From: a virus
DNA: 22,592 nucleotides
Direction: 5' to 3' (one strand)
Virus record (IMG/VR): IMGVR_UViG_3300020411_002953
Span: 1-22,592 of that record
The first letter of the stretch is position 1, and each line of letters begins with the position of its first letter. The notes beneath the pieces are model-generated. The model did no database searches. It was not told the DNA's origin and was given only the letters and a program-made list of their open reading frames with translations. Shown piece after piece: positions 5,488 to 22,592 of the stretch. Position numbers and translations under genes: made by a program.

Positions 5488-5495
5488 TATTTATT
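5488..5495 (-). promoter_or_regulatory. Possible late promoter box upstream of the YHYH gene
   Basis: On the minus strand AATAAATA matches the relaxed late motif NATAAATA and overlaps the TAA stop of the giant gene. The distance to the YHYH ATG is only 10 bases, so a transcript from here would have almost no leader. The match also falls partly on a stop codon in AT-rich DNA. Support is weak. Confidence 0.25.
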
Positions 5496-8400
5496 GTTGA
5501 AAGATTTGGTCAGGAGTGAAGTTAGTGACGACTGTGTTACCAGTTTGTACAGATAGAACTGCAGAGTTGGAGTACACAGGAGTTGCACCAGCGTAAGTGA
5601 TTGCAACACGGAATTCATCTGAGTCATCAGCCTGTATAGTTGGATTACTGTCATATGTTGCTGATGTAGCACCAGTAATGTTAGACCATGCAGTTTCACC
5701 ATACTGCTTGACTTGCCACTGATAGTTGAGTCCAACTGTTGTCTCAGCAGGATCACCATCTGCAGCACTGAAGTGTGCTACAACAGTGAAGCTAGCAGTC
5801 TGACCTTGGTTAACTGTTACGTTGGAAGGATTACGTGTGATAGCAATCAAACCAGCTTCAATAATGATTGGTTCACCAGTCTGAGCATTGATTCCTTCAC
5901 CTGCATAAACATCAAATCCACCGTTAACTGGAGGTCCATCTGGAGATACAAATGTATCTTCAACGGTATTCTCTACAGCAACGATTGGTTGTGCGTATCC
6001 AATACCTGCAGATCCAATGTCAATTCTAGCAACACCCATTTGTGCACGTACACGACCATCAAATCCAGTAGATGAAATAACACTAACTGAAGGACGTGAG
6101 GTGTAACCGTTACCTGGGTTGGTAATAATTGTTTGATCAATGGTACCAGAGCGAACACTTGCTAATGCTTCTGCGTTACGTCCTTTAACTGTGCCAGTGT
6201 ATTCGAATGTTACAAGAGAGTTGGAAGACTCAATTAGAGCAACCTCACGTGGAACAATCTCATCTTCACCCTCGATGAAGAGTTGGTCACCTGCCTCAAT
6301 TGGAGGTACGACTGTAGCAGCAATAACGTCTGCATCAGAACCAATGTATGAGAATCCAACAAATGTTGTACCCGCACGTGGGACTTCAGCAAAGATGATT
6401 CTAGAACCAACCAGTTCGTAACCTACGCCTGGTTCCTGAATAACACCATTCAGTGAAACCATGATATTATTTTCTGGTTTAATCACGTTAGACTGAACAC
6501 CTTCGGTTAGTGTTAGTGAGTAGAATCCACCACTCTGCTTAAGGTTGAATGAAGATCTCAATGAGTCAAACTCGAAGGAGATATCATCTAACTGACGTAA
6601 TTTACCAATGTAGTATCCGATGAAATCAGATCCAACTTCAGGTGGTTCAGCAAATGTGATAATGTCTGAAGATGCAGTGTAAGCACCAGTAGCACCAGGT
6701 GGTTGTAGAATTCCATTAACGAAGATCAACATGTGACCAGCAGGATCAGGTAGATATTGCTGACCATTGGAGATTGTAAGATTGAACTGTGTCTGCGTAC
6801 CGTCAAATCCACGGAAGTAACGATCAACACGTCCAAGTAAATTCTTAGCAGTTGTAACACCAGCGATCCATCCATTATCGGACTTAACTGTTATGTTATC
6901 TACGAAATCACCTTGTACATCTTCTAACCAGCAACGAGCAGTAATACCAGATTGTTCGATAGCAATGATCTTACCGTATGATGAATAACCTGTCTCAGTG
7001 TAATTTGATGCTGTTGCATAGATTAATGGGAAGTTCTGTAAGTTATCAAACTTACCAATGTTGTATCCACCTGTTGCAGCTAGAGATCCATCAGGATCAG
7101 TTGTTGGTTCTGTTGCATCACCTGTCCAGTAATTTTGTAATCCAGCAATATAGAGATCGTTAACGTTATCGTCAGGTCTGTAATCATACTTGGTTACATA
7201 TCCCCACCAGCCAGGGTTGAGAGGTGTGGTTCCCTGAAGTAGATAAACTTTATCACCAGCAACAAATGTACCAGAATATTCACTATCCACAATTACCTGA
7301 GATAGAGTTAATTTTCTAACCTTCTCACCATGTACGTAGGTGTTAATTGTAATTGGAGATCCACCGTCTGTAATACCTACAAAGTCGAGAATTTTTTCTG
7401 TCTTAGATCCGTAGATAATATCACCAGACTGGAATGCACCAGTAATAGTTTCAACGTCTATCGTTACACGACCACCGCTATTATCTGTAAGAACACCTGA
7501 CTTATTATCATATGCACTTGCATATGCTTCTGTAGCAGTTGTATCTTTAAACAACCAATCACCTTCTAAGAATTCACCTATCTTCTCATTGATTAATAGA
7601 CGATCTTCTATGACTGAAGTTACAACAGCAGTTGCACCAGAGTCAACACCTTCAATAGTTTGACCAGCAGAGATGGTTCCTTGAACAAGTTCAAGTTTAA
7701 TCCAACCTAAGTTATTCTCATCTCTAAGAACTCTCTGCATTACATAACCATTATTAGCAGTTGCACCTTGTACCTGAACTTGCTCACCGTTTGTAAATGC
7801 GATGGAAGACATGGTATTTAAACCATAGTACTTGAAGGTCTTAACAACATTCGCTCTATTAATGAAACTGGTTGAGATCTCAGCAGATGCACCAGTTGTT
7901 GTACCAACTAAAACATCAGCAATATTAAATCCAGCAGTAATTGGTTGATCAATATCACGTACACCGTAAGTGTTAGCAACACGATCAATTCCAGAACGAC
8001 GAACTGTAAAGAATTGCTGGTTACCAGCATTAGTTGTGTCTAATGCAAATGGACGGTACCTTGCATCATGATTAGGCATACGAGCAATCTCAAACCAATC
8101 TGGTTGTGCATTAAGAACGTAGTAGTAATCTTGATCATTAGCACCATCTAATGAATTAGCAGATGCAAGAACATACTTAACAACATCACCACGACGGAAG
8201 AAGTTAGTTCTATTAATACGAGCACGATTTTCTTCTCTTTCATATCCAACTTCAATTGTTGGAGTTAGATTTACTAGAGCAGGATCAGTATTGTAATCAA
8301 TACCTTCATCATACTTGTTAGAGTAATTAATTACATCAGTAGCAGCATTAAATATTACTTTATTATCTGTTGGGAATGTTGCTCTTTCTATAGCAAATTC

Positions 8401-11400
8401 TAAACAGTTTAATGAACTATCAAAATTAAATTCTGTAGTTTCCTTATCCCATTCTACATGACGACGATATCCATTTACTTCAGGATACTGATAAACATCA
8501 TATGTATTCCATCCAGAATTAGTTGGATCTTGAACAACTTCCTTACAATATTCTCTTACCTTATTCAAACCGTAAAGTAAGCGAATTCTATCTACTGTAG
8601 GATAAGCAATAAATTGACCTTCACCATCAAACCATGTTCCAGCAAGTTCAAACGCAGAAGCATTACCACCTGTAGTTAAATCGTATAGACCAGCTTCAAG
8701 AACTGACTTGAAGAATGCTAAATCTGGATTATCTCCTGCAGGATAATTTGCTTGAGTCGCAGCAAGAGCACGTCCAGTAATTGCCTGATCATTCCACCTT
8801 AGATAATGTGCAGTATTACGATTAGAGTATGAACCAGCACCAAGAGTATCAATGATCAAATCAAACTGAGTTGTCATTGCAGATACAACATTATAACAAG
8901 TATATTGCTGATAAAGTGTATTAGTATATGGTGGTACAGTTCTTGTTAAACCACTCAAGTGATTTGTATTAGTCTTAGCACTCTCTATTGTATTAACAAC
9001 AACATCAAATAATGTGCTTATAGCAGATGCAGTAGTTGCACATGTTTGATTCCAAGTTGGAGCTGCAACTTGATATGTAACTGATAGATCTCTTTCAGCA
9101 ACATCACCATGATAATGACATGGCCAGATAGATGGTATCTGACGAGAAACGGAATCAAGACTTGCATTAGAACTAATGGTATCTGTAATAATACCAAACA
9201 TGGTAGTTATTGTTGCAGCAACATTAGCACAAGGACCATTGCCTGAACCTGTAGGTAATGTACGTGTACCACTAACTGCATTAGTACTAATTGCATCCAT
9301 TACGATATCAATTAATGTAGTTGCAGCAGCGACCTCTGTTGGACATGCTGGTTGTGTTACATCAGTAGTAATTGTTGTATCTCTGTATTGTAAAAGACCG
9401 TGATTACCATATACAGGAGTCTGAATATTTCTAATGATTTGAGTAATAATCTCTTTGGTTAGAGTCATAATACCAAGACTCCATTTCTCCTCAAAGTAAT
9501 TATTGAGGTGAGTCTGAGTAACATACTCCATTGCCATATCATATATCTCGTTGTTACCACCAAATGCAATATGGTATGCAACACCTCTCAATATACGCTC
9601 AACGTCATCACAGCAATTTGCATTTCCACCAGGAATTGTATAAAGTTTGTTAATTGCATTATCATGTGCACGTACAAACTTATGAGTGTAAGCACCACCA
9701 GTTTGTACAGCACCAGAAGTTGCACTTACAAATGTATGCTTATGAATTCCACCAGTGATAACACATGCCTTAGTGATACCATTATTTGCACCAGTTACAA
9801 ATGTATGAGCAGTAACGTTAGTTGAAGGAATAACATCAAGAACAACAACTTCGAATGTGTCAGTGGTTACATTTTGAACCTTCAACCATCTACCTGACAT
9901 TGGGTCAGTAGCACGTGGATATGAATGATTACCACCACCTTGTGTGCAGGTAAAGGTTACAGCATCATCATCAAACTTAACCCACTCATCATTTTCCAAC
10001 TTATGTGCAGAAGCAGTCTTAATCTTCATTACACCTGTTGTTGGATCATAAGTTGTACCTGCAGCAGCAGTTAACTTATTCTCCATTCCTACCCATGTAT
10101 GAGCATGTTGATTAGCAGGAAGAGAATCATAACCAACGTTAATTGTGACAGTACCAGTTTGTCTTAGAATTCCATTAGCAACAGCAGATGCAAAATTATG
10201 TTGAGATGTATTTTGTGATATTCCAACATTTACATCAAACTCATTTGTTTGTACATTAAAGATTGGTAACCATCTTCCACTAAACGGATCAGTTGCACGA
10301 GGATATGCATGAAGTGAACCAAAGTCATCTTTACCACAACGGAAGACTAGTGAATCATTTACAATCTGTACATAGTCATTTGCTTTCTCAATTCCACCAC
10401 TTGTTGCAGAAACAAATGTATGTGCATAATTACCACCAGTAATTAATGCCTTAGTCTGTTTCTTAAGTGCTCCACCAACAGAACTTACAAACATGTGTGT
10501 GTAGTTACCACCCGCAACTACTGAATTAGTAAGTGCAGATTGGAATACATGAGTTGTAGTGTTTGTAGATGGTGCAGTATTCAGAACATTGATTGTAATT
10601 GAAGTAGAATCAGCAGCAATGATAGGTAATGCATTATCATATGATGGGTCACGCTTAGATGTGATTCCATTAGCAGATGTTGCTGTACATACATGAGTAG
10701 TTGTATTTGTTGAAGGAATATCATCAAGTACAACAACTGTAAACTTACTTGCATTTACATATGTAACTTTCAACCAACGACCATTTACAGGGTCAGATGA
10801 ACGAGGATATGTATGATCTGTTGCCTGACCATCTTCATCACATCTGAATGTTAATGAGTTCTGAGCGATCTGGATCCAATCTCCAGTTACCAAACCATGA
10901 GGTGCAGAAGTCTCAATCGTCAAAACACCAGTAGTAGGATTATATGCTGTATTAGTTGTAGCAGTATGTGAATCAGTTAGACTTCTAGGATATGCATGAT
11001 CACTTGATTGACCATCTTCATCACAACGGAATGTGATAGCATTTTCTGCTAACTTAATACTGTCTCCTTGTGCAAGAGTATGTGATCCAATAACAATCTG
11101 TAAATTACCTGTAGTTGGATTATATGAAGCACCAGTTGGAGTGTATGTTGATAGAGGAGTATTACCAACATTAACATCAAATGTATTTTCAGTAATGTTA
11201 GATATACTTAACCACTTATCACTAGCAGGGTCAGTAGCACGTGGATATGCATGATCTGTAGCATAATCATCCATCTCACATTTGAATGTGATTCCATTAT
11301 TATCAATCTTAATTTGCTCACCTAAAGCAAATCCATGCTTAGGAACAGTCAAAGTCATTACACCACTTGATGCTGTGTATGATGCATCAGTAATAGTATG

Positions 11401-14400
11401 TGATGTTTGACCAGTAGCAGCATTAACGAAGTTATGAGCAAACTGATTTGAACTAGAAGCAACACCAACATCAACGGTAATTGTCTTCGATGTAGAATGA
11501 ACTATATGAAGAGGAACATTATATGCAGGGTCAGTAGATCTTGGATATGCATGATCTGTAGCATAGTCATCTTGTGCACAACGGAATGTTAATGAATTTG
11601 CTTCAAGTTTAACAGTCTCACCAGCACGTCTAACGCCATTTTTCGCAGCAGTGATAAATGTATGTGCTGTAGTATTAGTTGGTGAAGTTCCCTGAAGAAT
11701 ATTACATTCAAATGTATTTGTAGTTACGTTTGATATACTAATAAACTTACCACTAGAAGGATCAGTAGATCTTGGATATGTGTGCTCAGATTGATGACTA
11801 TCTTGATTACATGTGAATGTTAATGAATGATCAGCAATTCTAATCTTGTCACCATTAGAGAATCCATGATTAGGAATAGTAAGAACTAATAAACCACTTG
11901 AAGCAGTGTATGTTGCATCTGTAACTGTATGATCTGAATGACCACGTAGACCGTGAGGACCAGGTGTGGTAAGGGTCATATGACCAGTTGCCTGATCATA
12001 CTCAGCATTAGATACATCCCACGAAACTATTGGGGATTTACCAACAATAACTTCGAATGTATTTGTTGTAACAGATGTGATTGTTAACCACTTATTAGCA
12101 ACAGGATCACTAGATCTTGGATAAGTATGATTTGATGCTCCACTATCCATTGTGCACTGGAATGTCAATGCATTAGGACTAAACTTGATTTGATCGCCAG
12201 GAGTAAATCCATGACCGTTTAGAGTCATCTTCATTACACCAGTCTTAGCGTTATACTGTGCACCAGTTACAGTATGAGTTGTTGATGCATTAAAGTTATG
12301 ACCATTAATTTCCAGTGTCATTACACCAGTTGTAGGTACATAAGTTGCATCAGTAGCAGTATGCTGTGTTGATCCTACAGCATCAACATTAATAGAAGTA
12401 TTGAAGAATGGGTCTGTTCCACCATCACCTGCAAGTCTTCTTGGATAAGTCTTCTGTGCGGAGTTTCCATCCATTGCACATGTAAACTTCAGAGTTTCAG
12501 CACCGAGTTTTAATTTATCACCTGTCTTCAATCCATGTGATCCAATGGTTAGAACCATTGCACCAGTTTGATGATCATAAGTTGCAGTTGATACATCGTA
12601 GTTGATATTTGGTGTAGAACCAACGTTGATGATGATCGATCCATCTTGCTTCTCTAATCCATTGTTAGAAGCACTGACAAATGTATGTGAAGATTGATTA
12701 GGAGAAGCACCGATATTAACTTGGAATGAATCTGTTGACACTCCAGAAATAACTAACCACTCATCACTGAATGGATCTGTTGGACGTGGATATCTATGCC
12801 ATGTAGCATGTTGATCAGCAGCACATGTGAATACTAATGATCCGTCTGCAATTCTAACTCTGTTACCATTGGAGAATCCATGATTAGGTACAGTAAGAAC
12901 TAAGTTACCAGAATTAGGATCATAAAGTGCACCTGTAACTGTCTTAGATATTGTACCAACTTCCTTAATTGGGATATTGGTATTTCTAACTGGATCTGAT
13001 GCTCTTGGATAAGTATGGTTTGTACCATTATTATCCATACTACATGTGAATGTTAAGGAATCATCAGCAAGTTTAATTGTCGTTCCTTCAGTTAGGTTAT
13101 GTAAACCAACATTCAACCACATGTCACCTGTCTCAGGATCATATGTAGCAGCAGTTGGAGTGTAATTAACAGCAGGAGTTGTTCCAACATTTACGGTAAC
13201 AGTACCGTCTTGACTCTTAACACCACCAGCAACAGCAGAAACAAATGTATGCTGATATAGTGGGTTAAATTGAATAGCACCAGCAAGAGCAGACTGCCAT
13301 ACATGACCTGTGTTATTAGAAGAAACACCAACGTCAAGAGTAATAGTTGTACCAGTTATTGCAGTAACAGGAACATGCTGTTCGAATGCTCTATCACGTT
13401 TTTGCTTAATACCATTAGAAGTACCACTCTGGAATACATGAGTAGTTACGTTTGTGGAAGGTATAGTTGTTAAAACTTGAACTGTAAATGTTTGTCCAGC
13501 AATAGCGGAAACTTGTAACCACTTACCACTTACAGGGTCAGTAGATCTTGGATATGCATGATCAGATGATTGACTATCTTCATCGCAACGGAAGGTTACA
13601 GCACCATCATCAAACTTAACCCAGTCACCTACCTTAATACCATGTGTGGTACCTGTGTTAATAGTCATAAGACCTGTAACAGGATCATATGTTGTACCAG
13701 CACCAGCGGTATGTGTATCAATTGTATTTCTTGGATATGCATGATCACTTGACTGACCATCCTGATCACAACGGAAGGTTAATCCTCCAGTCTTGATCAT
13801 GACTTTAGAGTCAACAGAGAGATCATGAGATCCGATTGTTAATTCAAGAAGACCAGTAGTCGGAGTGAATGTAGCAGCAGTTGGAGTGTACTCAATAACT
13901 GGAGCAACATGTACATCGACTTTGAAACTATCGTTCCATGCTTCTGTTATTGGTAACCACTCGTCACTAGCATAATCAGTATATCTTGGATATGGATGTT
14001 GTGATTGATGATTATCAGCATCACATGTAAATGTAAGTGCACCATCTTCAATTAAGATAGAATCATTTGCCTTCTCAAATGTTGCTCTAGTGATTGCATT
14101 AGATGCAGTTCCACCAGTATATGTGTGGACTGTTGTGTTTGTAGAAGGAGCATTTGCTAATACCTGAACATCGAATGTATCAGCAGAAACATTGAATGCT
14201 CTTATATATCCTGCAGCAGCAGGGTCAGCATGTGTAATTCCATTATTAGTACCACTTACAAATGTATGAACACTTGTGTTGGTTGAAGGAGTAATCTCAA
14301 GTACTTTTACATCAAATGTAGTTGATGTAACATTTGATATTCTTAAGAACTTACCACTAGCAGGGTCAGATGAACGAGGATATGTATGGTTAGTACCATT

Positions 14401-17400
14401 ATTATCTCTTCCACAAGTAAAGGTTAATGCGTTATCATCAAACTTAATCCACTCACCATTTGCCATGTTATGAGCAGAACTTGTTGTGATGCTCAATATA
14501 CCTGTAGTTGGATTATATGTTGTACCTGTATCTGCAGTATGTTGTGATACTTGTGCACGAGGGTAACTATAAGTACCGCCACCTTGTGTACAAGTAAAGT
14601 CTAATGAACCGTCAGTAATCTTAATGAACTCACCATTATTGATGCCATGTGCAGCACTGGTAAGTGTCATTATACCTGTTGTTGGATTGTAATCAGCATC
14701 AGTAACATTCAACTGACTGTTAGCAACAAACTTATGTTGACCAGCAGCAGCAGTCTTACCAATCTGTACCTCAAAGGTACCATCAGTTACAGCACTTACA
14801 GGTAACCACTTATCACTAGATGGGTCAACACCCTTACGTGGATATGTGTGGTTTGTATTGTAGTTATCATTATCGCACTGGAAGATTAATGCATCATGAG
14901 AGAACTTAATTCTGTCACCATTTCTAAAGTTGTGATTCGCAACAGCAAGTTTTAAGATACCAGTCTTAGGATTGTAATCTGCATCAGATACAGTGTATGC
15001 CTCAGATTGTCTTAATCCATGTGCTGCAATATCTAAAGTTAATGCACCAGTTTCAGCATTGTAATCTGCACCTGTTGGTGTATGTGCATTAGTACCAACA
15101 GCAGTAATTGCTAATCTCTCATTATATGAAGGATCAGTTTCACGAGGATAACTATGCTCTGAAGCATGACCATCTTGATCACAAGTAAAGATTAATGAAT
15201 TTGCATCTATAGAAATAGAATCATTAGTAGTTAAATTATGTGATGGTAAAGTTAATACTAGATCACCAGTTGCAGCATCATATGTTGCATCAGATGGAGT
15301 AAACTCAGTTACAGGTGTTAGATCATTATCTCTTGTATAACGATATACTGCTTCCTCAGCAACGAAGCGAGAATTATTAAGAATTAACTGATAGGTATCA
15401 GCAGACTTATTAACATTAATACCACCAACTAACTGTGATGCTTCCATAGTAGGATTATCACGTTCCTTACTATTGTAAGGATAGAAATCTAATTGCTCAA
15501 AGAATGTTTGAACCTTACCATGAATATTCTGACCACGTGCAATAATTGGAATATTACGCATAGCCTGAATTGCCATATCTCTTGCCTCATTGAAGGCATA
15601 TATTGGCATCTGATTTGTTAAATGATATGTTGATGCCTTTCTATAGAAATCAGCAGCATCCCAAACTCTACTGTTTCCACCATACTTCATATTGAAGGTC
15701 ATGGAACGTAGGAAGTCACATATATCATCTACACAAGACTTATCACCATTTGTGATATGAAGTTGTGGATATTGAATATTTGCACGATATACTGCTTCTT
15801 CTGAAATGAATCTAATATTACGTTCGATAATATTAGCAGCATCAATCTGTCTTGAAATAACTGGGTTCTGATCGTATGAATCTACACCAGGATCATTAGC
15901 ACCAACAAGTGTATCAACATCACCAACACCTTGAGCATAGAAGTTATCACGTCCAAAAGCATTTCTCATTGCGAGAATTGCCATATCTCTTGCTAACTTA
16001 TAAGTGTAGATAGATGCATCTTCTTCACCAGCAATATGCTTAATACCATTATTTTCTGGTTCGATATAGTAGTTTGAAGCATCCCAAACCTTACTATTAC
16101 CACCAAGACGAAGATCGTGAATAACTGCGTCAAGATAGTCATTAACATCATCAACACAGTCTTGCTGAGTCTGACCTGCAGGATAAGTATGATCTTGGAA
16201 TCTAGCAGTATCGTTCATTGTATGAACTGCTTCCCAAGCAATCTGATCCTTATTTCTTTCGATCATATCAGCTGCATCTAGGAACCTATCTCCATCAGAA
16301 CGTCCTGGATCATATCCTTGTGGATCAGGTGGGAAGGTTACTGTATCCCAATCAGCATCAGTATTGTGAACTGTCTTAGGTGCAATTTGTGTATATACAG
16401 CAGTATAGTAATCATCTATATTTGTCTGACCTTGATTTGCATCAGGTGAATTACCAAATTGAACTAAGAGTTGGTTTGCTGCTTTAATGGATAAGAACTT
16501 AGTAAATTCAAGAGCATCCAACATAGGAAGAAGTTCTTCATCTACATGAAGGATATCTTGATCTTCATCTAAGTACTTGTCAATAACCTCATTAGTACCA
16601 GCATTACCACCAGTAATTAAGTCAGCAATTATACCAGGAATAACGAAATCTTTAATATCTCTTTCACAGTATGGTTGACCATAACCAGGCATTTCCAACT
16701 TGTCATAAGTTGTACCATTGATTTCAACTTGCCACTTGTTCTGAATATAACCAGCAACCTCTTCAGCAATGAAATCACGGTTCTGCCACATAGCATCACC
16801 AGCATCACGATATCTAGCACCAGTAGGTCCAAGAATATCAAGAATACCATCAACTAGTGCGGTAACTTCATTTTGTACACCAGCAGATGCAGGTGATGAG
16901 AAGTTGTTAGGTACACGTAATCTATCTGTATACCTAACATTTTCATATTTCTCTAAATCAGTACTTGTTGTTGTGATTACAAAATTGATAATTTCACCAA
17001 CTTTCTGCCAAGTGTATAAAGTTTGTAGAAGTTCTTTATTAACGAAATCTAATCCACCAGTTGCAGTTAAGTATCCTTTAGCAGCAACAGTAGTATAGTA
17101 GTTACCACCATACTTAAGATCTTTAATGATAGCATCAATAATATACTCTTCAGTATCCCTTAAGCAGAAGTAAGTACCAAGATAATTATTAGTTGCAGGA
17201 TCATCACCACGAATCACAAAGTCTGGGAACTTAGCCTTCATCATTGCAACAGCAGTCTCAGAGATCCACTTATCATTCTGTTGTACTTGTTCTGCACAAC
17301 GACGATGCTCATCTCTACCAAGATCTACATCTTCAATAATTACACGCTTAGAATCATAATCAATCTTCTTAGCAGTTGCAGATGATATAGTCTGACCAGT

Positions 17401-20400
17401 AAACTTAGCATAAGTTTCAGTAGTAGAACATATAAATGGTGTCTCACCTGTTAGACCTAAAACAATCTTATCATCAGTAAAGTCTGGAGCAACAGGAGGA
17501 GTAAATGCAGCAGTGAATGTTGCAATTCCTTTTCTTACGATAACATTATCCATGTTACCAGTGAAGTCATTGGAACCTGCTAAATCAGATCCAATATAAC
17601 AAGGACCATATCCAAAGTCATCACTATTAGCAGCATTACTACCTGCTTGTGTTCCATTAACATATGCTTGCATTACACCGCCATTTCTTATGACTGCAAC
17701 GTGATACCAAGTATTTGCTGTATTAAATACGTCACCAGAAAGTATGATGCTAGTGCTTCCGTTGTAAACACGGATAGCCTTATCAAACATATTAACTCTT
17801 AAACCTGATCCAGCAGTTCTACGTAAGTCGAACAACATCTGTGTGCCACTTACAGAAGTGGGATTAATCCATCCTTCAAGTGTGAAATCTCCTGTTCCAA
17901 AGTCAAAGTCATATGTATCTACAGCTTTAAGATATGCACCAGAAGCAAATTTTAACGATTTTTTGGAGTTAGCTAACTCAGACTTAGTAACAATAACACT
18001 CTGAGTAACACCACCTTGATTAACAAGAGTGGAGTTAGTGATATATTCACGATCTGTGAATGTTCCTGTTACACCATTACTGTCACTGAATAACCATCCT
18101 AAACCAGAGTTAACACCCTCTAGAACTGTTGAAGCACCAGATGATACACCCTTAACAGTTTGACCAGTAGCAAATAATCCAGTTGACTTATCCTTATAAG
18201 CAATCTTAATAACACGAACGGTCTCACCATCACGGAATGATCCATCATCAATACTTGCAAGTGCATTGATATTGTTCTGATTACCAGCAGTAAATGCAGT
18301 TGTAACAATACCAGTTAAAGTATCAATTGTAGATTGAACGTTAGCACAGTTTGTTGCACTCTGATTATTACCAGATGCATAGTTAGCATCATAGTATTGT
18401 GCAGGAGCAACACCACCACTATAAGTGGTAGGATCATTCAAATTATAACCTGTTGAATTTAAATCCTTAACATAAAGTAAATTATTAATTGCTTTCTTAG
18501 AAAGATCACGAGCATGTGTTATGGAAGTATTTGCTTGTGAAGCATGAAGACCTGAGATGATATTACCAGAAGTGTCATAGTACGAACGAACAAATTTAAC
18601 ACTTGATAGATTACCACCACTCTTAACATCTTGCGCTAAAGCATCAACAAATAAACCTAAGTCACGACGACATGTAGTCTCAGATGAATTATAAGTTGGT
18701 TCAGTTGCCTCAATATCACCGAAGTTCTGATTCTGTAGAAGTGTTTCACTAATAGTATTCTTAAGTGTGTCTAGAGCAGCACGAACATCAGCACAAGCAC
18801 CAGAGTTTGTATTAGAAATTGTATTACCTGAAGTATCAGTATAATTTGCTCTACCTTCAGTTAAAGTTGTATCTTGATATATTGTGTATGCTGTTCCGTC
18901 AACAGTGATAGTACCAGATAGTTGATTAGTAACCACCTGATTCATATACTCACTACACTTAGAATAACCCCAAACAGTTTCAGTTACCTGTGCATTAATA
19001 TACTGTAGACTTGCTCCACTGAAATACTCAGTGATAAATTTACGTGCATACTTATTACCACCAGAATACATATCGTATGCAACAGCATCGATATAGTATG
19101 CCATATCCCTCTTACACTTATCTGCACTTGGTATAGCAGTTGATGGATATTGAGCAACCATATCTGCATATGATTGTGCTACGATATAATCCTTATTCTT
19201 GATTATCATTCTATAAGCATCACGGAAACGTGATCTTCCATCAGTCTGTGACTGTCCTGGATAATAGAAATCTGGATGATCTACTGATATCTGAGCATCA
19301 CCAAAGTCAACAATCTCATCTCTAGATCTTTCTATAGAACGAGCACCATCAGCATGTCTGTTAGCAGCAATACCATATGCAGATCCGAGAATTGGATTAT
19401 TGTATGTTACCTTAATATTTCTAAGTGTATCACCAATACTGAATACACCATTAGACAAATCAGTATATGTAACTTCTGAAGAACGAATTGCTTCAAAGTC
19501 TAGGAAGTCACCATTAATACGATTATCACTATCTAATAGTTCCGTTGGAGTAACAGTAGATTTAGCAATATTGTCTAGAAGAATATTAGGATAAGACTGA
19601 CTAACTAGACGTTCAAATAATAGACCATAGAATGTAGATCCAGAAGTTAATTCCTGAACACCTCTATTTTCATCTGTACCAACAGGATAAGGTGCCTGAG
19701 ATGTTATTCTTGCAGCAACGTTAGAACGATTAGAATATATGATGTCTTGAAGATCAAAATCATATACTCCAGTTTCATACTTAGCAGTACCAGAAGTCTT
19801 AGATAGAACTATATCATTACCAGCAGTACCATCTTCATTCAAGTTGATTTCAGTTATTTGTGCAGTTGGATTATTCTTACTGCGATTTGTACCAATAACT
19901 GTTTCATCAAATTCATAGATATTCTCTGCACTAAGTAAGGTTACTGAATCAAGTCTTCCACTCCATCCTAGAGCACTAACTCTAACTACTTCATTAAGTT
20001 CAAATATTGCTGATCCACCAGTATTTTGTAGATCTACAACATCAACTGTATTAGTACCAGTAGCAACAACAATAGCATAAGTATCACTATTATCACCTTG
20101 TACTTGATAACCAATTTCAGGATATATACCACCAACATCACTCAAATTCAAACGAGTGATATTTAAGAACTCAACACTAACATTCTTATAAACAATCTTA
20201 GAAGGTGCCTTTGGTGCTTCCTTAAATACAATCTGTCCACCAACGATATCATATGAATCGATAGGTGCCTGAATAACACCATTCAATGTAATTAACAACT
20301 GGTCATTTTTAACAATAACCTGTTCGTTTTCTACAGTAAGATTGAATGCTTTCTTAATTCCATCAAATTCACCAGAGATATCATCTAATTTTTTAACGAT

Positions 20401-22592
20401 AGAAGTTAGAATTTCCTCAGAGTTAGTTAAACGCTTCTTACGGAAAAGTACTTCAGTGTTATTGAAATCAGAATATATTGGTTGAGCAGCAGCAAATGAA
20501 GTTACCTCATTAACATTAGAGTATTCATTAATATTAACCTGCTTAATAAACTCAGTACCAACTTTACGTCCAGATACATCCTTACCACCAGTCAGTTGTA
20601 ACTGACCAAACATATTGAAACCTGCAGGGTGGTTATTCTCAAGAATTTGTTGCTTCCACTCATTAATAGGAATCTGGGATTTAATAACATAAGAGAAGTT
20701 CTGATAGAAGAAGGAGTCTTGAACTTTCTGAACAATCTCTGATGGTTTACCAACGTCATCAATAAATTTACCTGGTGTCTCAGTTAGAGATCCAATATTC
20801 AATACACCTTTAGCAAGTGATACATTATCAATAACACCAGATGCACGAGATACAGTACCATTGACTCTATATCCAGCCTCAAATGTTCCTGTAGCATCAA
20901 TTAATTTTAAAATCTTAGGTCCAATCTGCCAACCATCGTTTGTAGAAACAGTAGCGAATACGGTTGCTTGATCTTCACTATCACCCATATAAACTCTCTC
21001 ACCTTCCAAGAATACGGAAGTTTCAACAACAGCTGTTGCTTCACCACCAAATACCTCAGTTAGAAGTACTTGACGACCAGAACCAGTACCAGCAGAACCA
21101 TCTACGAAAGTAATGTAGTTACCAGATTCAGCATCAGCAGGTGTTAAAGCAAATCTTAATTGATCAGTTTCAAGTGAATTTGCTTCACCAGCAATAGCAT
21201 AATAAATCTGACCTTCAATTAATGCAGTCAAACCAGCAGATCCAGGTTGAGGTAGGATACCTTCAGTAGTACCAACATCATCTGCACGGAATGTTATAGC
21301 AGCACCCTGTGTAATTCCATGTGGGAAGTTAAATTGTAGATATCCTAAATCAGTGTTAACAACGTAGTTAAATTCAGATTTCAGAGTAACAACTGGTTCA
21401 GAACTATATCCAGCACCAGGATTCTTAATTTGAATCTCTGATAGACGATTGTTCTTAACAACAGCAATTGCTTCTGCACCAAATCCACCACCACCTGTTA
21501 CGATGACTGCTGGTGGAGAAGTATATCCAGCACCAGGATTGGTGATTTTGATCTGTGAAAGTATTGATGTATTGAAGAGTTGTAAGTTAATTGGGAAGGT
21601 AATTTCTGGTTTCAGAGTATAGTCATGTGAATAACCATAACCAAACTCATTATTCTTCAATTTCTTAATCTTACCAATATTCTTACCAGTTAAGAATACA
21701 GAAGCACCAGATCCCTCTGCAGGAATAACCACATCAAGTTCTGCACCAGAACCAGTCAATTGAGGTCCAAGAATTCCAGTTATTCCATCAACATCTATAC
21801 TTGCAAATGTATAACCTTTACCTGGATCTGTAACAGTTACACTACTAATAGTTCCAGAACCAATAGTTTCATCTACTGTAACTTCTATACGGCAAAGTCC
21901 ACCTTCACCATCACCAGCAATAGCTACCTGATCATAAGTTCCAACTGCATATTCAGATCCACCAGCAGTAATTGTAACTCTTTCAATTTGACGGAATGAT
22001 GCAATATCTGAAATGATAGGTAACTTCTTATAGAATCCACCAGCAGATATTAGTTTAATTGCATTGATAGGACCAATTGCTTTAAGTGATGTAGTTGAAT
22101 ACTTAGAGTATGCTACACCTTGATCATCATTACCTACATTAGCTTGTGTGAACTCAGGTTCAAATGATAATGGGAATTGGAAGTTAGTATCATCAATAAT
22201 CTTAGTGACAGTGTAAGTTCCATCAAAAGGAGTCTTCTTAACATCAATAAATGATTGAGCACCAACAGGAGAATCAGATCCAGTTCTAGATGGATCAAAA
22301 TAGTAAGAGATATTTGTTACTTGACCATCAATCTTAAACTTAACGAATGGTGCATTAGTACCATCAAATACACCTGGAGTTCCAGTTCTTTCAATATTAT
22401 TAAATGAGTATTCTAGTTTAAACTCATTATCTTGAGCGAATGATAAGAAATATCCAACGTTGGAAGAATCACTCATATCAAAGATATAATTATGATTCCT
22501 TGTTAGCATCAATGTGGGATGCTTGGTGTATATGTCTACTCTAGCAATACTTCCATTAACAAATGCTGGTTCAGCACTAGGGATAGCACGAG
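5491..22592 (-). CDS. Giant modular virion protein, probable baseplate/fibre adhesin (5' end outside the window)
   Basis: The frame ends at TAA 5493-5491 and is open to the right edge: the 26 codons upstream of the TTG at 22512 contain no stop and continue the same composition, so the start lies outside. At least 5,699 residues are encoded. Modules in N-to-C order are: beta-rich region with Gly-Tyr repeats (21990-21380); a FYQNFSYVIKS...HPAGFNMFG motif (about 20720-20620); an NGVIQ repeat (20375-20165); helical Cys/GGN repeats with a LamG-like domain (19240-15320); the 18-copy YPR array (15306-9646); the remaining helical repeats (9645-8500); a long beta-rich region (8480-6815); two more NGVIQ repeats (6815-6340); a Gly-Tyr repeat (6130-6055); and an Ig-like domain (5850-5540). 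There is no enzyme motif, membrane segment or collagen repeat. Its place ahead of gene 8 parallels T4 gene 7 (about 1,032 residues), but no similarity to gp7 was established. Adhesin or baseplate-extension function is inferred. Confidence 0.93.
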   Translation of the reverse strand, partial: RAIPSAEPAFVNGSIARVDIYTKHPTLMLTRNHNYIFDMSDSSNVGYFLSFAQDNEFKLEYSFNNIERTGTPGVFDGTNAPFVKFKIDGQVTNISYYFDPSRTGSDSPVGAQSFIDVKKTPFDGTYTVTKIIDDTNFQFPLSFEPEFTQANVGNDDQGVAYSKYSTTSLKAIGPINAIKLISAGGFYKKLPIISDIASFRQIERVTITAGGSEYAVGTYDQVAIAGDGEGGLCRIEVTVDETIGSGTISSVTVTDPGKGYTFASIDVDGITGILGPQLTGSGAELDVVIPAEGSGASVFLTGKNIGKIKKLKNNEFGYGYSHDYTLKPEITFPINLQLFNTSILSQIKITNPGAGYTSPPAVIVTGGGGFGAEAIAVVKNNRLSEIQIKNPGAGYSSEPVVTLKSEFNYVVNTDLGYLQFNFPHGITQGAAITFRADDVGTTEGILPQPGSAGLTALIEGQIYYAIAGEANSLETDQLRFALTPADAESGNYITFVDGSAGTGSGRQVLLTEVFGGEATAVVETSVFLEGERVYMGDSEDQATVFATVSTNDGWQIGPKILKLIDATGTFEAGYRVNGTVSRASGVIDNVSLAKGVLNIGSLTETPGKFIDDVGKPSEIVQKVQDSFFYQNFSYVIKSQIPINEWKQQILENNHPAGFNMFGQLQLTGGKDVSGRKVGTEFIKQVNINEYSNVNEVTSFAAAQPIYSDFNNTEVLFRKKRLTNSEEILTSIVKKLDDISGEFDGIKKAFNLTVENEQVIVKNDQLLITLNGVIQAPIDSYDIVGGQIVFKEAPKAPSKIVYKNVSVEFLNITRLNLSDVGGIYPEIGYQVQGDNSDTYAIVVATGTNTVDVVDLQNTGGSAIFELNEVVRVSALGWSGRLDSVTLLSAENIYEFDETVIGTNRSKNNPTAQITEINLNEDGTAGNDIVLSKTSGTAKYETGVYDFDLQDIIYSNRSNVAARITSQAPYPVGTDENRGVQELTSGSTFYGLLFERLVSQSYPNILLDNIAKSTVTPTELLDSDNRINGDFLDFEAIRSSEVTYTDLSNGVFSIGDTLRNIKVTYNNPILGSAYGIAANRHADGARSIERSRDEIVDFGDAQISVDHPDFYYPGQSQTDGRSRFRDAYRMIIKNKDYIVAQSYADMVAQYPSTAIPSADKCKRDMAYYIDAVAYDMYSGGNKYARKFITEYFSGASLQYINAQVTETVWGYSKCSEYMNQVVTNQLSGTITVDGTAYTIYQDTTLTEGRANYTDTSGNTISNTNSGACADVRAALDTLKNTISETLLQNQNFGDIEATEPTYNSSETTCRRDLGLFVDALAQDVKSGGNLSSVKFVRSYYDTSGNIISGLHASQANTSITHARDLSKKAINNLLYVKDLNSTGYNLNDPTTYSGGVAPAQYYDANYASGNNQSATNCANVQSTIDTLTGIVTTAFTAGNQNNINALASIDDGSFRDGETVRVIKIAYKDKSTGLFATGQTVKGVSSGASTVLEGVNSGLGWLFSDSNGVTGTFTDREYITNSTLVNQGGVTQSVIVTKSELANSKKSLKFASGAYLKAVDTYDFDFGTGDFTLEGWINPTSVSGTQMLFDLRRTAGSGLRVNMFDKAIRVYNGSTSIILSGDVFNTANTWYHVAVIRNGGVMQAYVNGTQAGSNAANSDDFGYGPCYIGSDLAGSNDFTGNMDNVIVRKGIATFTAAFTPPVAPDFTDDKIVLGLTGETPFICSTTETYAKFTGQTISSATAKKIDYDSKRVIIEDVDLGRDEHRRCAEQVQQNDKWISETAVAMMKAKFPDFVIRGDDPATNNYLGTYFCLRDTEEYIIDAIIKDLKYGGNYYTTVAAKGYLTATGGLDFVNKELLQTLYTWQKVGEIINFVITTTSTDLEKYENVRYTDRLRVPNNFSSPASAGVQNEVTALVDGILDILGPTGARYRDAGDAMWQNRDFIAEEVAGYIQNKWQVEINGTTYDKLEMPGYGQPYCERDIKDFVIPGIIADLITGGNAGTNEVIDKYLDEDQDILHVDEELLPMLDALEFTKFLSIKAANQLLVQFGNSPDANQGQTNIDDYYTAVYTQIAPKTVHNTDADWDTVTFPPDPQGYDPGRSDGDRFLDAADMIERNKDQIAWEAVHTMNDTARFQDHTYPAGQTQQDCVDDVNDYLDAVIHDLRLGGNSKVWDASNYYIEPENNGIKHIAGEEDASIYTYKLARDMAILAMRNAFGRDNFYAQGVGDVDTLVGANDPGVDSYDQNPVISRQIDAANIIERNIRFISEEAVYRANIQYPQLHITNGDKSCVDDICDFLRSMTFNMKYGGNSRVWDAADFYRKASTYHLTNQMPIYAFNEARDMAIQAMRNIPIIARGQNIHGKVQTFFEQLDFYPYNSKERDNPTMEASQLVGGINVNKSADTYQLILNNSRFVAEEAVYRYTRDNDLTPVTEFTPSDATYDAATGDLVLTLPSHNLTTNDSISIDANSLIFTCDQDGHASEHSYPRETDPSYNERLAITAVGTNAHTPTGADYNAETGALTLDIAAHGLRQSEAYTVSDADYNPKTGILKLAVANHNFRNGDRIKFSHDALIFQCDNDNYNTNHTYPRKGVDPSSDKWLPVSAVTDGTFEVQIGKTAAAGQHKFVANSQLNVTDADYNPTTGIMTLTSAAHGINNGEFIKITDGSLDFTCTQGGGTYSYPRAQVSQHTADTGTTYNPTTGILSITTSSAHNMANGEWIKFDDNALTFTCGRDNNGTNHTYPRSSDPASGKFLRISNVTSTTFDVKVLEITPSTNTSVHTFVSGTNNGITHADPAAAGYIRAFNVSADTFDVQVLANAPSTNTTVHTYTGGTASNAITRATFEKANDSILIEDGALTFTCDADNHQSQHPYPRYTDYASDEWLPITEAWNDSFKVDVHVAPVIEYTPTAATFTPTTGLLELTIGSHDLSVDSKVMIKTGGLTFRCDQDGQSSDHAYPRNTIDTHTAGAGTTYDPVTGLMTINTGTTHGIKVGDWVKFDDGAVTFRCDEDSQSSDHAYPRSTDPVSGKWLQVSAIAGQTFTVQVLTTIPSTNVTTHVFQSGTSNGIKQKRDRAFEQHVPVTAITGTTITLDVGVSSNNTGHVWQSALAGAIQFNPLYQHTFVSAVAGGVKSQDGTVTVNVGTTPAVNYTPTAATYDPETGDMWLNVGLHNLTEGTTIKLADDSLTFTCSMDNNGTNHTYPRASDPVRNTNIPIKEVGTISKTVTGALYDPNSGNLVLTVPNHGFSNGNRVRIADGSLVFTCAADQHATWHRYPRPTDPFSDEWLVISGVSTDSFQVNIGASPNQSSHTFVSASNNGLEKQDGSIIINVGSTPNINYDVSTATYDHQTGAMVLTIGSHGLKTGDKLKLGAETLKFTCAMDGNSAQKTYPRRLAGDGGTDPFFNTSINVDAVGSTQHTATDATYVPTTGVMTLEINGHNFNASTTHTVTGAQYNAKTGVMKMTLNGHGFTPGDQIKFSPNALTFQCTMDSGASNHTYPRSSDPVANKWLTITSVTTNTFEVIVGKSPIVSWDVSNAEYDQATGHMTLTTPGPHGLRGHSDHTVTDATYTASSGLLVLTIPNHGFSNGDKIRIADHSLTFTCNQDSHQSEHTYPRSTDPSSGKFISISNVTTNTFECNILQGTSPTNTTAHTFITAAKNGVRRAGETVKLEANSLTFRCAQDDYATDHAYPRSTDPAYNVPLHIVHSTSKTITVDVGVASSSNQFAHNFVNAATGQTSHTITDASYTASSGVMTLTVPKHGFALGEQIKIDNNGITFKCEMDDYATDHAYPRATDPASDKWLSISNITENTFDVNVGNTPLSTYTPTGASYNPTTGNLQIVIGSHTLAQGDSIKLAENAITFRCDEDGQSSDHAYPRSLTDSHTATTNTAYNPTTGVLTIETSAPHGLVTGDWIQIAQNSLTFRCDEDGQATDHTYPRSSDPVNGRWLKVTYVNASKFTVVVLDDIPSTNTTTHVCTATSANGITSKRDPSYDNALPIIAADSTSITINVLNTAPSTNTTTHVFQSALTNSVVAGGNYTHMFVSSVGGALKKQTKALITGGNYAHTFVSATSGGIEKANDYVQIVNDSLVFRCGKDDFGSLHAYPRATDPFSGRWLPIFNVQTNEFDVNVGISQNTSQHNFASAVANGILRQTGTVTINVGYDSLPANQHAHTWVGMENKLTAAAGTTYDPTTGVMKIKTASAHKLENDEWVKFDDDAVTFTCTQGGGNHSYPRATDPMSGRWLKVQNVTTDTFEVVVLDVIPSTNVTAHTFVTGANNGITKACVITGGIHKHTFVSATSGAVQTGGAYTHKFVRAHDNAINKLYTIPGGNANCCDDVERILRGVAYHIAFGGNNEIYDMAMEYVTQTHLNNYFEEKWSLGIMTLTKEIITQIIRNIQTPVYGNHGLLQYRDTTITTDVTQPACPTEVAAATTLIDIVMDAISTNAVSGTRTLPTGSGNGPCANVAATITTMFGIITDTISSNASLDSVSRQIPSIWPCHYHGDVAERDLSVTYQVAAPTWNQTCATTASAISTLFDVVVNTIESAKTNTNHLSGLTRTVPPYTNTLYQQYTCYNVVSAMTTQFDLIIDTLGAGSYSNRNTAHYLRWNDQAITGRALAATQANYPAGDNPDLAFFKSVLEAGLYDLTTGGNASAFELAGTWFDGEGQFIAYPTVDRIRLLYGLNKVREYCKEVVQDPTNSGWNTYDVYQYPEVNGYRRHVEWDKETTEFNFDSSLNCLEFAIERATFPTDNKVIFNAATDVINYSNKYDEGIDYNTDPALVNLTPTIEVGYEREENRARINRTNFFRRGDVVKYVLASANSLDGANDQDYYYVLNAQPDWFEIARMPNHDARYRPFALDTTNAGNQQFFTVRRSGIDRVANTYGVRDIDQPITAGFNIADVLVGTTTGASAEISTSFINRANVVKTFKYYGLNTMSSIAFTNGEQVQVQGATANNGYVMQRVLRDENNLGWIKLELVQGTISAGQTIEGVDSGATAVVTSVIEDRLLINEKIGEFLEGDWLFKDTTATEAYASAYDNKSGVLTDNSGGRVTIDVETITGAFQSGDIIYGSKTEKILDFVGITDGGSPITINTYVHGEKVRKLTLSQVIVDSEYSGTFVAGDKVYLLQGTTPLNPGWWGYVTKYDYRPDDNVNDLYIAGLQNYWTGDATEPTTDPDGSLAATGGYNIGKFDNLQNFPLIYATASNYTETGYSSYGKIIAIEQSGITARCWLEDVQGDFVDNITVKSDNGWIAGVTTAKNLLGRVDRYFRGFDGTQTQFNLTISNGQQYLPDPAGHMLIFVNGILQPPGATGAYTASSDIITFAEPPEVGSDFIGYYIGKLRQLDDISFEFDSLRSSFNLKQSGGFYSLTLTEGVQSNVIKPENNIMVSLNGVIQEPGVGYELVGSRIIFAEVPRAGTTFVGFSYIGSDADVIAATVVPPIEAGDQLFIEGEDEIVPREVALIESSNSLVTFEYTGTVKGRNAEALASVRSGTIDQTIITNPGNGYTSRPSVSVISSTGFDGRVRAQMGVARIDIGSAGIGYAQPIVAVENTVEDTFVSPDGPPVNGGFDVYAGEGINAQTGEPIIIEAGLIAITRNPSNVTVNQGQTASFTVVAHFSAADGDPAETTVGLNYQWQVKQYGETAWSNITGATSATYDSNPTIQADDSDEFRVAITYAGATPVYSNSAVLSVQTGNTVVTNFTPDQIFQQ
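5540..5850 (-). other. C-terminal Ig-like domain of the giant protein
   Basis: The last about 105 residues before a short tail show the Ig-like pattern: PSNVTVNQGQTASFTVVA (strand B region), then LNYQWQVKQYGE with the core Trp, ATSATYDSNPTIQADDSDEF, and a closing FRVAITY...SNSAVLSV strand. The canonical cysteines are absent, as in many phage Ig-like domains. The next gene ends with a comparable domain. Confidence 0.7.
6340..6815 (-). repeat. Two 'FDG..F.L / NGVIQ' beta repeats near the C-terminus
   Basis: Two consecutive units of about 75 residues share the order FDGTQTQFNL or FDSLRSSFNL, a loop, LIFVNGILQPPG or MVSLNGVIQEPG, an aromatic-Gly turn, IITFAEPPEVG or IIFAEVPRAG, and a closing FIGYYIG or FVGFSYIG strand. 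A third unit lies at 20165-20375 (FDGIKKAFNL, LNGVIQAP, IVFKEAPKAP). This pattern is common in marine phage tail proteins. Confidence 0.7.
8500..9645 (-). repeat. Helical Cys/GGN repeats, C-terminal group
   Basis: This stretch resumes the helical repeat after the YPR array with CCDDVERILRGVAYHIAFGG followed by N (GGN codons at 9553-9561). Four short units of the type Cys-x-x-Val-x-x-x-x-x-Thr-x-Phe-x-x-(Val/Ile)-(Val/Ile) follow (PCANVAATITTMF, TCATTASAISTLF, TCYNVVSAMTTQF and a variant ACPTEVAAATTLI). A last GGN unit that lacks the Cys closes the group (DLAFFKSVLEAGLYDLTTGG, GGN at 8662-8670). Predicted structure is alpha-helical, unlike the flanking beta regions. Confidence 0.65.
10580..11145 (-). 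repeat. Higher-order repeat block, copy B (two YPR units plus PSTN extension)
   Basis: The block holds YPR units at 10984 and 10801 separated by a short SLTDSHTATTN linker, then a PSTNTTTHV segment, a KRDPSYDNALPI segment and TSITINV. Its order and length (about 565 bases) match 13330-13893, so a two-unit block was probably duplicated as a whole. Confidence 0.6.
13330..13893 (-). repeat. Higher-order repeat block, copy A
   Basis: The block holds YPR units at 13729 and 13546 separated by a NTIDTHTAGAG linker, then PSTNVTTHVFQSG, a KRDRAFEQHVPV segment and TTITLDV. The architecture is the same as in 10580-11145. A third, more diverged block with the same order (linker AQVSQHTADTG, then PSTNTSVHTF) spans about 14163-14700. 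Confidence 0.6.
15320..19240 (-). repeat. Helical Cys/GGN repeats, N-terminal group
   Basis: Six units carry a signature Cys-x-(Arg/Asp)-Asp-x3-(Tyr/Phe)-...-(Asp)-(Leu/Met)-x-x-Gly-Gly-Asn, with GGN codons at 19054, 18610, 17101, 16603, 16096 and 15673 (left coordinates). Examples are CKRDMAYYIDAVAYDMYSGG, CVDDVNDYLDAVIHDLRLGG and CVDDICDFLRSMTFNMKYGG, each followed by N. Several are preceded by a helix of the type (Asp)-Ala-x-x-(Met/Ile)-Ile-x-x-Asn-x-x-(Phe/Tyr)-Ile-x-x-Glu-(Ala/Val). The last helix (FVAEEAVYRYTRDN, ending near 15320) has no Cys/GGN half directly after it; that half appears only beyond the YPR array. Confidence 0.72.
17435..17963 (-). other. LamG-like (concanavalin A-type) domain inside the giant protein
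   Basis: About 175 residues have the classic LamG layout: SLKFASGAYLKAV start, FDFGTGDFTLEGWINPTS (the FTxEGW-type strand), MLFDLRR, WYHVAVIRNGGVMQAYVNG (the WYHVAVxR...xxYVNG strand pair), then CYIGSDLAGSNDFTGNMDNV with the GxIDxVRI-like end strand and a final IVLGLTG strand. In the family such domains often bind carbohydrate, so glycan recognition at the host surface is plausible but unproven. Confidence 0.8.
20165..20375 (-). repeat. Single 'FDG..F.L / NGVIQ' repeat near the N-terminus
   Basis: The segment FDGIKKAFNL ... LLITLNGVIQAP ... GQIVFKEAPKAPSKIVYKNV follows the same pattern as the pair at 6340-6815. The presence of this unit at both ends of the giant protein suggests it marks the boundaries of the central repeat region. 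Confidence 0.6.
21380..21990 (-). repeat. N-terminal Gly-Tyr beta repeats of the giant protein
   Basis: At least four degenerate units are seen: TAGGSEYAVGTYDQVAIAGD, TVTDPGKGYTFASIDVDG, ITNPGAGYTSPPAVIVTGGG and IKNPGAGYSSEPVVTL. They alternate strands with Asn-Pro-Gly-x-Gly-Tyr turns and GGGGFGAEA or GSGAEL linkers, the same module found in the 621-residue protein at 507-2372. Confidence 0.65.

Follow-up and report, generated by a model that had tools for sequence, protein, structure and literature searches.

Beta-modules apparently nested within one another in a loop of a phycobiliprotein-like domain of a giant cyanophage baseplate-position protein

Described proteins offer several partial counterparts of the repeat array analyzed here. 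Linear tandem arrays of Ig, FN3 and other fibre repeats likewise extend a surface protein by many copies of one small domain, and in ApcE (L-CM) a phycobilin domain likewise carries an inserted loop, the PB-loop. In the 22.6-kb virus record IMGVR_UViG_3300020411_002953 of IMG/VR (positions 1 to 22,592, the whole of which we call the window), a single minus-strand open frame (22590..5491) holds repeated helical units of a giant structural protein, one of which is interrupted by 1,892 amino acids (aa) containing 18 beta-modules (YPR modules). The ApcE insertion is a single loop of tens of residues rather than 1,892 residues of nested domains, and Ig- and FN3-type copies stand head to tail, whereas in the phage array a module can sit inside a module, giving a tree. 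To our knowledge, no parallel to a branched, self-nested repeat array has been described. Giant proteins of the same family (PHROG 701 and 18802), with helical units and YPR modules, occur in cyanophages S-SZBM1, S-WAM1, P-TIM40, P-RSM6 and S-SM1 (T4-GC969). S-SZBM1 and S-WAM1 differ from the window in being array-free, P-TIM40 in carrying three modules, which sit in the matching loop one unit earlier, and P-RSM6 in having arrays in other loops. Overall, we consider it likely that a beta-module entered a loop of the seventh helical unit (U7) of a cyanophage gp7-position protein and self-nested to 18 modules, probably forming a branched baseplate decoration.

We counted eight helical units along the giant protein, where a C-half motif (C-x-x-D, then GGN) and an N-half motif (N..xIAEEAV) recur. 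U1 to U6 are intact, U7 is split and U8 is degenerate:

18862..19299, minus strand: U1, phycobiliprotein-like (C-K-R-D), above the Pfam PF00502 cut-off
18418..18855, minus strand: U2, phycobiliprotein-like (C-R-R-D)
16912..17349, minus strand: U3, phycobiliprotein-like (C-L-R-D)
16414..16851, minus strand: U4, phycobiliprotein-like (C-E-R-D)
15907..16344, minus strand: U5, phycobiliprotein-like (C-V-D-D), with an NCBIfam CpeA-like stretch (E 5e-4)
15481..15918, minus strand: U6, phycobiliprotein-like, intact; the equivalent loop holds 1-3 modules in relatives L024 and L042 and in P-TIM40
15322..15426, minus strand: U7 N-half (aa 2389-2423), helix 1, corresponding to phycobiliprotein helix B
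9361..9645, minus strand: U7 C-half, with loop IPGGNAN, C-C-D-D and helices 2-4
8518..8841, minus strand: U8, the last unit, degenerate, with the fold motif kept and Cys and Asp both lost

The N-half of U7, SRFVAEEAVYRYTRDND, ends at aa 2423 (base 15322), and its C-half, LYTIPGGNANCCDDVERILRGVAYHIAFGGN, begins at aa 4316 (base 9645). Between them lies the array (aa 2424-4315; 15321-9646), located just before the Cys that aligns with the bilin-attachment Cys of phycobiliproteins. The initial annotation had the array interrupting a single helical repeat at the loop that links its halves; this placement holds, with the start of the insert moved from 15306 to 15321. Scored against a hidden Markov model (HMM) of the unit, trained with the sequences of the window and of its relative L009 excluded, the two halves gave 16.3 and 49.7 bits separately and 75.0 bits when joined, and the C-half joined to 200 shuffled N-halves reached at most 56.7 bits. 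The rejoined U7 also scores 23.5 bits against PF00502 (cut-off 22.2). Across 317 units from 95 loci, the Ile of helix 1 and the Cys are 21-39 residues apart (median 27), as against 1,916 residues in U7. Furthermore, U7 is uninterrupted (NARWIAEGVVNTFVATNGWTIPNGTVSCIDDTERILKGVAYHVAYGGN) in L009-L012, relatives with 59-60% identity that form the sister group of the window clade on the tree (100% support), and in the alignment a 1,893-aa insert falls exactly between FVATNGWT and IPNGTVSC of L009. These comparisons confirm that the two halves of U7 belong to one unit.

The helical units had been described as an alpha-helical repeat; profile searches, PF00502 and Foldseek point to a phycobiliprotein-like identity in place of a generic repeat. 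A profile built from 37 units (16-61% identical to the first unit) and run against all PDB sequences matched 117 chains at E<=0.1, with CpcA the best match (E 2.9e-7), and phycobiliproteins made up 60 of the best 60 of these 117 matches. The profile similarity to phycocyanin, phycoerythrin and allophycocyanin (PF00502) covers helices B to G, with a probable globin-like fold; the unit Cys aligns with Cys84, the point of bilin attachment, and the Asp with the bilin-binding Asp87, placing C-x-R-D on the bilin site. This Cys and Asp are the sole invariant columns among the 37 units, and both are kept in 132 of 179 non-redundant units, the exceptions being mainly U8 (both lost) and the units of phage P-RSM3. 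PF00502 matches U1 at 46.4 bits in the whole protein (E 5.5e-12) and at 29.6 bits alone, while units other than U1 and the rejoined U7 singly fall below the cut-off. A PF00502 scan of whole phage genomes had all its matches within these giant frames, and Synechococcus was the one control genome out of 14 to be matched. An AlphaFold model of L024, in which U5 and U6 occur naturally with one module, shows each unit as four helices, the first two of which flank the beta-domain; Foldseek relates this model to phycoerythrins at probability 0.95-1.00 and a template modelling (TM) score on the target of about 0.5-0.6, with weak E values (about 0.2-0.9) and a mean predicted local distance difference test (pLDDT) score of 65.7. 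Most profile matches start at about residue 30-40 of the phycobiliproteins, and the units have no N-terminal X-Y helices (those making the alpha-beta dimer); we therefore call them phycobiliprotein-like and not phycobiliproteins. The phage units differ further in being shorter and repeated within one phage structural protein, and their bilin is putative. By profile and model comparison, the helical units are phycobiliprotein-like domains, probably of globin fold.

The insert in U7 contains modules of about 100 aa, each composed of segments S1 (ATYxPxTGxLxLTI), S2 (IKIxxxSLTFTC..D.....HxYPR), S3a (TDPxxxxWLPIxxV), S3b (TFxVNV) and S4 (HTFVSAxxNGI). Our parse of the array gives the following features:

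9646..15321, minus strand: insert of 18 FCCH-like beta-modules (aa 2424-4315), one outermost module enclosing the rest, to a predicted depth of at most 8
15247..15291, minus strand: first segment (S1) of the outermost module
10669..10953, minus strand: deepest module (depth 8), complete S1-S4 (aa 3880-3974)
9658..9693, minus strand: last segment (S4, HKFVRAHDN) of the outermost module, comparable to the single-module insert of L024

A position-specific scoring matrix (PSSM) scan of the array found 89 segments in near-equal counts (18/18/19/17/17) and in an order impossible for tandem modules. Conversion of the window array into a well-nested word requires as few as 3 edits, whereas conversion into a tandem word requires 34; in 1000 shuffles of tandem pieces the nested cost never fell below 6, so that 0/1000 were as low as the window. 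In the parse, S1, S2 and S3a of the outermost module stand at the start of the array (aa 2434-2498), its S3b at aa 3128 and its S4 at the very end (aa 4300), and the other 17 modules lie within it at a depth of up to eight. At both ends the array resembles the insert of relatives that have a single module (FTPTAATY ... HTFVRAEDNAV). The array of relative L008 likewise parses into one outermost module with depth 8, at 8 edits, and 0/500 shuffles were as low.

As for the fold of the module, an FCCH-like beta-barrel is suggested by the models and by Pfam: the score against Pfam E1_FCCH (PF16190) is 29.2 bits (cut-off 29.5), and Foldseek on the model gives a probability of 0.9-0.99. The best Foldseek matches are the FCCH domain of ubiquitin-activating enzyme E1, which is itself an inserted domain, and the beta-barrel of the phage phi92 endosialidase (4hiz). 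Both of these are single copies, whereas the phage modules carry a C..D..H.YPR motif and accept copies of themselves. Modules across the array (window 9646-15321) keep C..D......H.YPR, and this Cys-Asp-His pattern might be a metal site.

Among the 80 viral contigs and 14 isolate loci that we compared, the number of modules in this kind of loop differs. There are none in S-SZBM1, S-WAM1, L009-L013, L015-L017 and others, one of about 100 aa in most of L018-L034 and L041-L052 and in L079, three in P-TIM40, 19-20 in the window, L006 and L007, and about 30 in L008. The array had been proposed to be expandable, with homologues to be checked for shorter loops and other copy numbers, and relatives of both kinds exist. 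Since the modules of P-TIM40 and of the one-module group lie in the U6 loop, the equivalent loops of two sister units have been used separately. Nor is the array a feature of this one unit, for related arrays stand at no fewer than five other places in the same protein family. Other arrays occupy the loop joining helices 3 and 4 one unit earlier (P-RSM6, L064), or lie further upstream or after the last helix of U6 (P-RSM6, L064, L046 and others), where they reach about 3,000 aa. Mapped on a C-terminal-region tree, the states of the insertion sites take 7 changes, and those of site U6 by itself take 4.

Natural differences between relatives allow insertion to be read independently of the nesting parser. 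Between the window and L008, and among L036, L037, L055 and L066, the clean single-module indels examined are complete S1-S4 modules, and each interrupts another module at its S1-S2, S3a-S3b or S3b-S4 junction, or inside or following S2. For example, L036 is continuous from ANYLVSAATYEPTTGVMTMTIGAHSYNAG to ESVYIEDQSLVFKC, where L037 has ANYLVSAADYTPTTGDMVLTIGSHSYNGG, a complete module of 106 aa and then EAVYIENQSLVFKC; the 106 aa lie between DMVLTIGSHSYNGG and EAVYIENQSLVFKC. Several indel modules have closely matching sequence on both flanks in relatives, and larger or lower-identity gaps among these relatives are less clean.

Close relatives from other samples, L006 (90% DNA identity) and L007 (95%), are collinear with the window through the whole array and have the same modules. 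The ratio of nonsynonymous to synonymous substitution rates (dN/dS) across the array is 0.20-0.26, indicating purifying selection on the open frame, and modules within the array are at most 79% alike in DNA. A search for tandem repeats in the array DNA found none; with old modules and a stable module number as well, fast expansion by slippage was rejected. Judged from these comparisons, array growth is apparently a matter of rare whole-module insertion over long times, with slow turnover.

The protein that carries the array occupies a defined place in the virus genome:

5491..22590, minus strand: giant structural protein (5,699 aa, N end cut by the contig edge) at the gp7 place of T4-like cyanophages
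17542..17922, minus strand: Laminin_G_3 (concanavalin-like) domain, PF13385 (E 6.7e-19), between U2 and U3

The full-length frame of relative L007 is 6,926 aa. Downstream of the giant frame, a YHYH protein, a T4 gp9/10-N protein, one further protein and one like gp8 follow in turn. T4-like cyanophages have this arrangement after gp6 (gp6 - giant - YHYH - gp9/10 - gp8 in the phages of the same family named above), with the downstream genes as in S-SZBM1 and S-WAM1. The giant protein matches PHROG families 701 and 18802 (E = 0 to 1e-265), and cyanophage annotations of the gene at that place read baseplate wedge initiator or virion structural protein. The giant protein of the window is the giant gp7-position (baseplate-wedge) protein of a T4-like cyanophage, the gp7 label coming from gene order and annotation. 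Its homologue in S-SM1 (SSM1_102, T4-GC969) was detected in purified virions (Sullivan et al. 2010; PMC3037559). The contig of L010, a relative in the window lineage, carries psbA and a CpeT gene; the host of the lineage is therefore probably a cyanobacterium. We found no similarity between the giant protein and solved phage proteins. The gene for the YHYH protein (PF14240; window 3897-5477) lies directly downstream of the giant gene, and in S-SZBM1 a YHYH domain also occurs within the giant protein itself.

We weighed self-nesting against several other accounts of the array. That it is an assembly or annotation artefact would be suggested by its source, a single environmental contig, yet the collinearity of L006 and L007 over the array, the open frame under purifying selection, and similar arrays in the isolated phages P-TIM40 and P-RSM6 make this hardly credible. 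A linear stalk, as the initial annotation had envisaged, in which tandem beta-modules, many of them truncated, form one long fibre from the loop, would account for 18 similar modules in a row, and linear beta-stalks are common in phage fibres. However, both ends of the insert are fixed at the same point of one loop, orphan head segments are balanced by orphan tail segments in the correct order, and the indels of relatives are complete modules inside modules that leave S1 beside S1 and S4 beside S2, a pattern that tandem duplication does not give. Together with the edit counts, the whole-module indels led us to reject the linear tandem reading, and we regard a stalk of this kind as improbable. 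Somewhat less improbable, though still unlikely, is a neutral ratchet, by which tolerated, hard-to-remove loop insertions accumulate and the array has no specific job. The family shows insertion at six or more places and a variety of copy numbers, and its array-free relatives are presumably viable; purifying selection across the array and a module number that is stable at 90-95% DNA identity argue against such a ratchet.

Self-nesting on a gp7-position protein also faces evidence that weighs against it. A PSSM built from the single modules of relatives alone recovers a smaller number of segments (80 labels, 13 edits). Nesting is a less clean fit for the arrays of other sites, parsed with crude boundaries (10-18 edits); those of L064 and P-RSM6 did not outperform shuffles, a result probably due to truncation by the clustering rule. 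That the U7 halves pack together is deduced from secondary structure and homology, the AlphaFold model (mean pLDDT 65.7) being of the natural one-module form. Finally, no similarity to T4 gp7 was detected with the N-terminal 1,200 aa of S-SZBM1 and S-WAM1 as queries.

In the self-nesting account that we favor, the sequences show that one beta-module was inserted in the seventh domain, into the loop ahead of the (former) bilin-attachment Cys. Further copies of the same module type then entered loops of the first module and of its daughters, leading to 18 modules inside one another, up to eight deep. Because the array hangs on one loop with its ends kept together, closure of the host domain is still possible. 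A surface loop is both the entry and the exit point of each module, and the array would therefore form a compact or branched cluster of beta-barrels off the baseplate and not a single stalk. As part of the baseplate, the giant protein would likely expose the cluster at the rim, where it could act in attachment or pack against fibres. The most likely form is a branched decoration of the cyanophage baseplate; it probably serves at the periphery to attach the phage to the host surface, or as a spacer or stabilizer between neighbouring baseplate and fibre parts. The term "display platform" may describe such an arrangement.

The preserved bilin site raises the further idea of a virion biliprotein, in which the units still bind bilin at the conserved Cys by means of phage or host enzymes (PebS/PcyA, CpeT), putatively to sense light, to quench or to lock the baseplate structurally; the idea concerns the scaffold and is compatible with the nested array. 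The invariance of Cys and Asp favors this idea, most exceptions being the degenerate last unit. Among 14 phages with units, CpeT-family genes occur in 13/14 and bilin reductases in 6/14, and of 50,697 phage records, the 352 that match unit 1 are all named as cyanophages or are one marine virus record. The lack of a settled role for phage pcyA, pebS and cpeT (PMC3037559) also counts in its favor. On the other hand, P-RSM3 (L094) retains CpeT and a bilin reductase, yet Cys is replaced by Q, K and V in its three units and Asp is also lost in 2/3, which argues against a strict link. The missing X-Y helices count against it too, and cpeT adjoins the unit-bearing gene in one lineage only. CpeS, considered as the missing lyase, was rejected and counts against the idea as well, being absent from the 14 phages with units. 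Weighing these points, we think it doubtful that the units bind bilin. In S-RSM4, S-CAM1 and Syn1, the unit-bearing giant tail gene is preceded at a distance of about 0.7-1.1 kb by cpeT, a gene of the bilin lyase family; this adjacency is missing in P-HM1 and was therefore not used as evidence. The neighbourhoods of cpeT and the giant tail gene are as follows:

L086, 11598-13076
L091, 14055-15656
L095, 14282-15527

Two adjacent bilin reductase genes stand on the L063 contig (G018:25252-26467), with a similar pair in P-RSM6.

In the open-access literature, which our queries, some of them narrow, covered in part, we found no prior account of Russian-doll nesting or of phage tails with phycobilisome domains, and neither the phycobiliprotein relation nor the nesting of PHROG 701/18802 proteins is described in the literature searched. 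A broader proposal, that tail-base proteins of T4-like cyanophages are virion biliproteins with phage- or host-supplied bilins and that the self-nesting beta-module is a mobile domain building branched structures, is speculative, and we give it a small chance of being correct. If true, the proposal would provide a function for phage bilin genes that have long gone unexplained (pebS, pcyA, ho1, cpeT). Phycobiliprotein-like domains with both bilin-site residues in tail proteins of abundant ocean viruses offer a direct test of the purpose of those genes. Protein repeat arrays are usually taken as linear, and a domain family that inserts into itself to a depth of 8 would be an unusual route of protein growth. 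With self-insertion caught between close relatives, branched domain arrays become testable.

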